Shown here piece by piece: positions 5,641 through 8,187 of a stretch of 22,539 nt of DNA (position 1 is its first letter; every line of letters starts with the position of its first letter). A program made the position numbers and the translations under genes. Origin of the DNA: a virus. The stretch spans positions 1-22,539 of IMG/VR virus record IMGVR_UViG_3300021960_005415, one strand, 5' to 3'. The notes under the pieces were generated by a model. The model was not told the origin of the DNA, did not search any database, and was given only the letters and a program-made list of their open reading frames with translations.

Positions 5641-6963
5641 ATGAGTTATAAAATCATAGACCTACCTGACTTAGGTAGAGCATTTAACGCAACAGACATC
5701 ATGGAGGTGTCTGCAAATGGGCTAGGAAGCTACAAAGTAAATATAGGAGAGTTTACCCTTGGTGGTGAGAACTATATTTTTGTTAACTCTAACGGGACTA
5801 CAACTGAGAATGGTCAGGCTGTAAAGGATGCATACGTGGCTGCTCAGGCAATGACACCAAATGGTGCTGCATTGAGTGCGACAAACCGTGTTGTTATTTT
5901 ACTTGCACCGGGGTTATATAGCTTTGATGAGGCTACCTATGGACCATTTCAGGTTAACACATCATTTATTGACTTTGAGTCAGTGACAGGTGAGCGTGAC
6001 GTTTACTTCTCAAGTATTGATGTTATAAGTTACCCTACACCAATTGACGCTAGATTTAGTGGGATTGACACTACAGTAAATAGTTATTATGCGCACAAAG
6101 CATTTGCTATATGTACATCAGGTACTGTAAATGAGAATATTATAGCCAAAAACTGCAAGGGTGGAACATATTCATTTAGCTGTTTCTCAGCAGGATTTAG
6201 GGGCTTATATGAGGACTGCGAGGCAGAAAGTTTATCATTTGTATCCACAGGAGACACTGTTTTCCCTCCTTTGGGAATTACAGGTTCAGGGCAAATTAAT
6301 ATTGACAACTATGGAACTATAAAAAACTGTATAGCAACAGTTGGCGCGTCATTCTGTAATTCTTACTTGTTTGGTCTACCATCAATAGTTAGAAACTATG
6401 GCACAATTGAAAGTTGTCAGGCTAGTGGCACACGGTCATTCTGTTTTGGGCCATACGACTCTCAAAATTTAGGGACAATTATAAATTGTAAGTCAGCAGG
6501 AAATGCTAGTTTTGTTGATGTTGATTATGATAATATTGGTACAGGTCGCGCTATAAATACAGGGCTTATTGACAACTGTATAATAACATCAGGTGGAGGT
6601 TTTGTTGTGTATAATGGAGTTTTAGCGGGAGCAGCCTCCAATGGCGGAAGTATTTTAAACTGTAAGGCATTTGGAGGTGCATCATTTGTTGTAGACCCTA
6701 CTCCTAGAATTGGAACTAACTCAGGGACCATATCTAACTGCTTTATGTCAATATCAACAGGTTTTTGTGGGGATAGCGGTACTAATAATGGACTTATTAA
6801 TGAGTGTGTATCACAGGCTAATGCTTTCTGTAAAAGTTCACCATCAACAATAAATGGTGATATATTAAGATGTACCTTGCTTGGTGATTCATGGACTACA
6901 GGAGCTACAGGTGGAGGAAGAGTTGTTTTAGGTATTGACTCAACAGGAGTTGTAAACTTTTAA
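5641..6963 (+). CDS. beta-helix tail spike/fibre protein with cysteine ladder
   Basis: A 440-residue protein. The N-terminal about 40 residues (MSYKIIDLPDLGRAFNATDI) look like a virion-attachment or base segment. Residues about 45-130 (NSNGTTTENGQAVKDAYVAA, VVILLAPGLYSFDE) match the beginning of pectate-lyase-like right-handed beta-helices of spike proteins. Residues about 165-420 form at least ten rungs of the pattern NxGxIxNCxxxxGxSF, with one Cys per rung (172, 193, 230, 259, 283, 313, 341, 367, 389, 411) and a second Cys eight or nine residues later in five of them. It is presumably a trimeric host-binding spike. No catalytic residues for polysaccharide cleavage can be assigned by eye. 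It sits in the fibre cluster. Confidence 0.75.
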   Translation: MSYKIIDLPDLGRAFNATDIMEVSANGLGSYKVNIGEFTLGGENYIFVNSNGTTTENGQAVKDAYVAAQAMTPNGAALSATNRVVILLAPGLYSFDEATYGPFQVNTSFIDFESVTGERDVYFSSIDVISYPTPIDARFSGIDTTVNSYYAHKAFAICTSGTVNENIIAKNCKGGTYSFSCFSAGFRGLYEDCEAESLSFVSTGDTVFPPLGITGSGQINIDNYGTIKNCIATVGASFCNSYLFGLPSIVRNYGTIESCQASGTRSFCFGPYDSQNLGTIINCKSAGNASFVDVDYDNIGTGRAINTGLIDNCIITSGGGFVVYNGVLAGAASNGGSILNCKAFGGASFVVDPTPRIGTNSGTISNCFMSISTGFCGDSGTNNGLINECVSQANAFCKSSPSTINGDILRCTLLGDSWTTGATGGGRVVLGIDSTGVVNF

Positions 6964-6965
6964 TT

Positions 6966-7304
6966 ATGAATAAGTATAGAGCAATAAGCGAGACAGAATT
7001 TATTAAGTTGGCTGACGTTCAGATAACAGAGGCTGAGTATGATGTATTTAAGAATGGCACTCAGGAAGAGAGACTTGCATTAAAGGATGACTTAGACTTA
7101 AGATTCTCAAATGTAACAATTGAAGGTGCTGAGTTAGACTTGTTAACTACAGCATATAATAGCTATAAGCCTGAGCTTAAGGATGGAGATGTATATGAGC
7201 TAATCTCATTTGATATTGCTATGGCCGGTGGCATGGAAGATGACAAGATGGGTGCCTACAACTATAAGTTAAATAATCAGATAATTAACGTAATTTTGAA
7301 ATAA
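6966..7304 (+). CDS. hypothetical acidic protein between spike and fibre genes
   Basis: A 112-residue acidic protein (MNKYRAISETEFIKLADVQI). The first about 65 residues are predicted helical (ITEAEYDVFKNGTQEERLAL) and the C-terminus is more strand-like (YNYKLNNQIINVILK). I do not recognise it. It sits 2 nt after the beta-helix spike and 1 nt before the YadA-like fibre, which is where fibre assembly chaperones or adaptor proteins are commonly encoded, but there is no diagnostic motif. Confidence 0.7.
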   Translation: MNKYRAISETEFIKLADVQITEAEYDVFKNGTQEERLALKDDLDLRFSNVTIEGAELDLLTTAYNSYKPELKDGDVYELISFDIAMAGGMEDDKMGAYNYKLNNQIINVILK

Positions 7305-7305
7305 G

Positions 7306-8187
7306 ATGGCGATAGATTTAAACATAACAGGTAATTATTTGCAGAATGGAGTTCCTATTGGAGGATTGCCATCATTTATTGAAACGAATGCTACAAATTC
7401 TACTGTTTGGAATAATGGAAAAGGAGATGTTGCTACCAATACATCATTTGGAGAGTTCTCACTAAATGCAATGTCTACCGGCAACAATAATACTGCTTTT
7501 GGTCGATATTCTTTAGCCTCAAATACATCATCAAATGATAATACTGCCTTTGGGCATGAGGCTTTAAGGTATGGAGTTAATCCGCAACAAAACACAGCTG
7601 TTGGTAATTATGCTTTGCAATCATCTCGTGGCACAGCCAATACAGCAGTTGGAATGTGGGCAGGTATAGGAATATCAAGTGGAAGCTATAATACAGTTAT
7701 AGGTAGATTTGCAGCACGAAGCATAGGCACTATTAGTAATATAACTGCGATTGGTTCTAATGCTTTAGAAAATCTTTCTACGGGTTTAGCTAATACAGCT
7801 GTTGGTTACTATGCATTAAATACTCAAACAACAGGTGCACAAAATACAGCACTTGGATTTTCAGCGGGTTACGGAGGTACCACAGGAAGTGGAAATGTTT
7901 TTATTGGACAAAACGCAATACCAAACGGCTCAGGTACAGGTTCAGGTGTCGCTATTGGTAACTATGCAAGAGTGGACTCATATGGTATTGCAATTGGTGC
8001 AAATGCAAACAATTCATATCTTTATTCATGTGTTATTGGATATGGAGCAACTGCTACTGCAAATAATCAATTTGTTGTAGGCTCTACTTCAGCAAACTAT
8101 GGTTCAGTTACAACGGAATCTAACTCATCAAGCAAAGTATGGAACGTAATAATTAACGGAGTAGCACAAAAAATCTTATTAGCATAA
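7306..8187 (+). CDS. YadA-like head-repeat tail fibre/adhesin
   Basis: A 293-residue low-charge protein. Residues about 45-205 carry a regular repeat NTAxGxxAL spaced almost exactly 17 residues (motifs at 45, 62, 79, 96, 112, 129, 146, 163, 180, 197). This passes into shorter YadA-head-like turns GVAIGNYA, GIAIGANA and CVIGYGA (214-248). Such repeats build left-handed beta-rolls in trimeric autotransporter heads and in some phage fibres. A short N-terminal segment (MAIDLNITGNYLQNGVPIGG) probably anchors it and the C-terminus ends KVWNVIINGVAQKILLA. There is no signal peptide or membrane anchor, so it is a virion fibre rather than a bacterial adhesin. The next gene starts on its last nucleotide. 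Confidence 0.8.
   Translation: MAIDLNITGNYLQNGVPIGGLPSFIETNATNSTVWNNGKGDVATNTSFGEFSLNAMSTGNNNTAFGRYSLASNTSSNDNTAFGHEALRYGVNPQQNTAVGNYALQSSRGTANTAVGMWAGIGISSGSYNTVIGRFAARSIGTISNITAIGSNALENLSTGLANTAVGYYALNTQTTGAQNTALGFSAGYGGTTGSGNVFIGQNAIPNGSGTGSGVAIGNYARVDSYGIAIGANANNSYLYSCVIGYGATATANNQFVVGSTSANYGSVTTESNSSSKVWNVIINGVAQKILLA

Follow-up and report, generated by a model that had tools for sequence, protein, structure and literature searches.

A probable beta-helix tail spike of a podovirus-like Bacteroidota phage carries an invariant ladder of ten cysteines

The closest described counterpart of the protein analyzed here is the N-terminal domain of FdlA, a fucoidan lyase of Flavobacterium sp. SA-0082. 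In the available portions of the paper on this domain, a ladder of five cysteine residues is placed inside the helix at the T2-PB3 juncture, beneath the groove, and is proposed to stabilize the groove and helix from below (PMC9410043). Iodoacetamide lowers the activity of FdlA, and the same portions describe the ladder without any use of disulfides (PMC9410043). A listerial leucine-rich repeat protein, InlJ, is named together with a cysteine ladder in a cited title (PMC3196904). The GLUG-repeat proteins (Pfam PF07581) carry G-T-I-x-N-C repeats every 20–30 residues. The cysteine ladder is therefore known elsewhere; in a phage spike it is apparently undescribed, no published description having been found in the open-licence literature.

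The window, by which we mean the whole stretch of DNA analyzed, is record IMGVR_UViG_3300021960_005415, comprising 22,539 bases of viral DNA. Its TerL, portal and one head protein match phage families. The TerL is 77.9% identical to that of MW202828 (an uncultured podovirus, Manatee Spring) and ∼47% identical to those of Flavobacterium phages of the Elemovirus group, the range among the 20 matches listed being 46.7–77.9%. The TerL, portal, MCP and other genes, in an order common to MW202828 and elemoF, place the phage in the Elemovirus-like or Cellulophaga podovirus group. Given these identities and the common gene order, it is likely that the host is a flavobacterium or another member of the Bacteroidota. 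The gene under study (5641–6963, plus strand, 440 aa) lies in a variable stretch with GroEL and GroES genes on one side and packaging genes on the other, and tblastn of its product against the loci of the two annotated relatives, MW202828 and elemoF, gave no match. The phage-encoded GroEL and GroES genes are adjacent (779–2652); MW202828 also carries both, and in elemoF they are on the opposite strand.

G, S, T, I and N are abundant in the protein, which has 16 cysteine residues (158, 172, 181, 193, 230, 239, 259, 268, 283, 313, 341, 367, 376, 389, 397 and 411). These make up 3.6% of its composition, compared with 0–1.4% in eleven other window proteins measured. There is one histidine and no CxxC in the whole protein. 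The original prediction placed 15 of these cysteines correctly, omitting Cys158, and divided them between two ladders. Ladder 1 comprises Cys172, 193, 230, 259, 283, 313, 341, 367, 389 and 411 (6154–6873), one per coil, each of which was described as lying in an NxGxIxNC motif. The looser form NxGxIxxC fits seven of the ten (motif starts 223, 252, 276, 306, 334, 360 and 382) and an eighth (start 406) fits GxIxxC, but Cys172 (NIIAKNC) and Cys193 (GLYEDC) fit neither; a literal NC within the full motif is found at only five sites. The seven sites are far above expectation: in 20,000 residue shuffles, NxGx[ILV]xxC averaged 0.03 occurrences and never exceeded 2. For Gx[ILV]xxC there are eight sites, whereas the same number of shuffles averaged 0.40 and never gave more than 5.

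Three full-length relatives of the spike were found in IMG/VR with an N-terminal query, and the remaining members of the family were recovered with a pattern, at the DNA level, of three repeats in succession. The pattern occurs in 14 viral stretches, and in the 12 where it is in frame it corresponds to nine of the spike family, a remote relative (L017), a GLUG-like sequence (L012) and a low-complexity frame (L011). The remote relative is 29% identical, and its stretch is incomplete; it retains G-x-I-x-N-C at four sites, with the variant HIFNC at a fifth. Whole-length and C-terminal spike queries of the viral contigs found no relatives, probably owing to the peptide patterns chosen, and a later profile search of the viral contigs returned ten, all already found. 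The alignment used below (A2) contains the window protein and the spikes of nine of the ten contigs, the spike sequence of the tenth (L020) being that of L019. Three of its ten sequences are 97–99% alike, leaving eight distinct lineages that are 45–79% identical.

The window spike has no trustworthy match in Pfam, PHROGs or NCBIfam, the best being YtkA at E = 0.24, judged to be chance. Searching PHROGs with four members of alignment A1 gave a best E of 0.11, in one of the four. K1-lyase_N (E = 0.038), Phage_tail_3 (0.045) and Kazal_3 (0.071) were rejected as the spike family, each match being weak and confined to one of ten members. There was no trustworthy match among PDB sequences in single or profile searches, among 50,697 phage records on tblastn of the window protein, L019 and L017, or in a genome collection searched with the spike sequence. 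A profile search of three genomes with pattern-matching loci found none in the three, which says little. On these comparisons, the spike family is absent from the searched libraries of protein families and phages.

Members of the family begin in different ways. The window spike and L004–L006 have a common N-terminal tag, MSYKIIDLP; in L018 and L019 the beta-helix is preceded by a short, different start, and in L023 by a fibre of several hundred residues. The C-terminal end, residues 421–440 (6901–6960), varies little across the members of A2, and was modeled with low confidence. The beta-helix and the conserved C-terminal end travel as a single unit between N-termini, and residues 1–41 (5641–5763) are a probable virion anchor. 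Elsewhere in the window, an NTAxG-repeat protein (7306–8187) has matches in PHROGs to families of virion structural proteins and of tail spikes (E = 3e-27 to 3e-19), and is possibly a second fibre. Neighboring reading frames at 7306–8187 of the window and 7675–9809 of L004 open with a common short tag, I-x-G-x-Y-x-x-N-G-x-P. Four consecutive frames of L004 have this tag. The remaining parts of the tagged frames are different or paralogous, and it looks like a common virion-attachment tag.

The spike gene is followed by a gene encoding 112 aa (6966–7304, plus strand), the reading frame of which starts two bases past the spike stop. Its relatives lie after the spike in all nine loci checked, and a search of the viral contigs for this gene returned ten contigs, every one a spike carrier. 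The 112-aa protein has no match in the phage records and no Pfam family, and its best PHROG match has E = 0.051. The gene order and exclusive linkage suggest that it may serve specifically in the assembly of this spike or be a second subunit of it; a role as a dedicated assembly partner of the spike would be the most likely. The 66.7-kb contig 3300009183_000003 (L146 and L155) ends inside the 112-aa gene, with the rest of the gene at its other end, so that genome is probably circular or permuted.

All ten ladder-1 columns are cysteine in all ten sequences of A2. Across residues 165–411 there are 46 invariant columns out of 247, giving a hypergeometric P = 2e-8 for the invariance of ladder 1, a value computed with near-identical rows included and with independence of the columns assumed. 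The codon varies between TGT and TGC among the relatives at nine of the ten sites, indicating that it is the amino acid that is kept and not the DNA. Judged from this alignment, ladder 1 is real and under selection at the protein level.

The second series is different in character. It was proposed as a second aligned ladder of Cys181, 239, 268, 376 and 397 (6181–6831). Cys397 is present in all ten sequences of A2 and Cys376 in nine, but Cys268 is found in four, and Cys181 and Cys239 in one each, the column of the latter being a gap in the other nine sequences. Cys181 is also one residue out of register, coming after SFS, where the other cysteines of this series directly follow Phe. Taken coil by coil in the window, the residue after Phe is S, V, C, C, V, V, V, C and C, with T after Trp in the tenth coil; these residues were assigned by eye, since automatic assignment went wrong in the coils at 341 and 367. 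The position is a facultative slot for mixed small and hydrophobic residues beside a conserved Phe, and is sometimes Cys. With only 376 and 397 conserved we reject the idea of two equal ladders. The first stands as an invariant series, and what recurs in the second is SF and not its cysteine.

AlphaFold2 prediction with the ten sequences gave a mean pLDDT of 77.2 and pTM of 0.81 for the better of two models, in which confidence is low for residues 1–41 and the final residues. The fold of this model is a right-handed parallel beta-helix (371 of 442 aligned PDB chains at Z of at least 8) over residues 43–433 (5767–6939), and the range aligned in fold matches is ∼44–439. AlphaFold2 may readily build beta-helices from repeats. 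The best-scoring solved folds are the A-modules of the mannuronan C-5 epimerases AlgE6 (Z = 23.6, rmsd 3.6, 315 aligned) and AlgE4 (Z = 23.3); the tailspike of Sf6 (Z = 22.8, rmsd 3.6, 328 aligned) and TSP3 of CBA120 (Z = 22.0) also match. The nearest solved folds are carbohydrate-active, comprising AlgE epimerases, inulin fructotransferases, PL6 lyases and the Sf6 tailspike. Identity with AlgE4 and AlgE6 is 12–14%, and the likeness is one of fold. With the tailspikes of Sf6, P22 and CBA120 (TSP3) the protein would share its fold and likely a location on the virion, but identity over the structural alignment is 8–12%. The best viral fold match is A0A6J5PWE7 from an uncultured phage (E = 9.6e-9, 24% identity), and a structural protein of Cellulophaga phage phi17:2 ranks eighth (E = 1.3e-3). 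The two models and the fold matches support the earlier suggestion of a beta-helix spike. We use the term spike on the basis of the predicted fold and the gene neighborhood; the relatives of TerL, portal and head genes in the window, and the N-terminal swapping within the family, are a suitable phage context for a tailspike.

In the better model each ladder-1 cysteine occupies the second place in a two-residue turn between strands (DSSP EE--E) in all ten coils, and nine of the ten sites share the register in the first model. With 20 occurrences of EE--E in the model, this register is not unique to cysteine. The identical register at the ten sites supports the stacking in adjacent coils that had been predicted for the first ladder. 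The residue at position −3 from the cysteine is Ile in eight of the ten window coils and that at −1 is Asn at six of the ten window sites, while position +1 is variable and often charged. From the register and this alternation of conserved and variable positions we infer that the ladder-1 cysteines face inward, beside an Asn-rich turn.

The predicted arrangement is like that of FdlA, with a cysteine ladder beside aliphatic stacks and an Asn ladder in a right-handed beta-helix, in a flavobacterial setting. At all ten ladder-1 sites the model predicts the register expected for a cysteine at the T2-PB3 juncture, as in FdlA. The two were compared by description. They differ in that the spike ladder has ten cysteines and that of FdlA five over coils 4–8, and FdlA is an enzyme and not a phage protein.

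Like the GLUG proteins, the spike has G-x-I-x-N-C repeats at a GLUG-like spacing. Comparison of the spike family with the GLUG profile using hhalign gave 98.1% (E = 9.5e-14) with Cys aligned on Cys, and a repeat run gave 97.8%, compared with 0.0–0.4% for reversed and column-shuffled controls. When Cys was masked the value was 89.9%, over only 21 columns; at the level of these profiles, the resemblance relies on Cys. The spike family falls short of the Pfam Glug gathering score, with one of ten members matching at E = 8.1 and the window protein absent from the matches. Unlike the GLUG proteins, the spike is without the second half-motif GGLVG, and has SF repeats instead. One GLUG protein compared with PDB sequences gave no match. 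The genomes of bacteria and archaea contain the DNA pattern for three repeats in at least 116 stretches; of the 116 listed, 102 are in frame and 14 are not, and 20 of the 102 have runs of at least five successive sites. Ten of the 102 were sampled at random and one (L107) was left out; seven of the nine proteins run matched Pfam Glug. As traced by this pattern, the ladder has a wide distribution among cellular repeat proteins. The view that stacked cysteines are unusual for a phage spike holds among the phages searched, but they are common in GLUG repeats and have a crystal-structure precedent in FdlA.

We think it likely that the gene product is a tail spike, receptor-binding or of depolymerase type, in a podovirus-like Bacteroidota phage, and that its ten coils are packed by a buried column of free thiols. 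The ten thiols would point into the core, where their neighbors would be an aliphatic stack of Ile and the turn positions rich in Asn. Because phage proteins are synthesized in the cytoplasm, the thiols should stay reduced. Small, hydrophobic and polarizable, they would form a continuous packing column that holds the coils in register and makes the helix stiffer, and the outer loops would vary and bind surface glycans. Hydrophobic stacking was one of three roles originally offered, and with the cysteines in an inward register in the model it is the best fit of these. If the stack served structure alone, Ser, Ala or Val might be expected in it at times, and the strict Cys at ten of ten sites therefore counts against packing alone. 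The conservation is stronger than packing alone predicts.

The ladder could instead act, by analogy with FdlA, as a floor supporting the conformation of a glycan-binding groove above it in an active depolymerase, a tentative reading that we regard as possible. It would accord with the carbohydrate-active nature of the nearest solved folds and with conserved acidic residues in the spike (D111, E113, D120 and D143), and the available account of FdlA has its ladder beneath the groove and its activity lowered by iodoacetamide (PMC9410043). However, the conserved acidic residues are few and lie in N-terminal coils, E165 being the sole invariant one within 165–411. The single Pfam match to a polysaccharide lyase is weak (E = 0.038, in one of ten members), and function does not follow from likeness of fold.

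A bolder proposal is that a ten-coil column made only of cysteine is essential for folding and irreplaceable by Ser or Val, with the 112-aa protein as chaperone and the whole cassette moved between unrelated anchors. This we consider doubtful. One form that such a need could take is a zipper, in which thiol contacts would set the register of the coils.

It is improbable that the ladder thiols pair as disulfides, either as transient links during folding or after release of the virion into oxidizing water. The ten cysteines are in line, one per coil, and adjacent coils of a beta-helix, spaced at ∼4.8 Å, are close enough in principle. Yet the ladder is predicted to lie inside the core, the spike is made in the cytoplasm, and the available text on FdlA mentions no role for disulfides in its ladder (PMC9410043). 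The alternation of conserved and variable positions, in placing the ladder inward, disfavors the cross-linking on exposure that was originally suggested.

The suggestion that the aligned thiolates bind metal has fared worse and is very unlikely to be correct. The invariance of the ten cysteines exceeds the needs of packing, but with a single histidine and no CxxC in the whole spike, an inward register in the model and no match to any family of metal-binding proteins in Pfam, PHROGs or NCBIfam, we reject a metal site. That the ladder is a composition artefact of a low-complexity repeat, with the cysteines unselected, has a negligible chance of being true and is also rejected, because although the spike is rich in a few residues, its repeat counts lie beyond those of residue shuffles, the cysteines are invariant in diverged relatives despite synonymous codon changes, and the DNA repeats are few and short.

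Stacked without exception over ten coils, the thiols of the predicted packing column provide a clean natural test of the choice of inner-corner residue in beta-helices. The linked 112-aa gene, if it encodes a spike assembly factor, would be useful for producing such spikes. The cysteine ladder also ties phage spikes to the GLUG-repeat proteins of bacteria.
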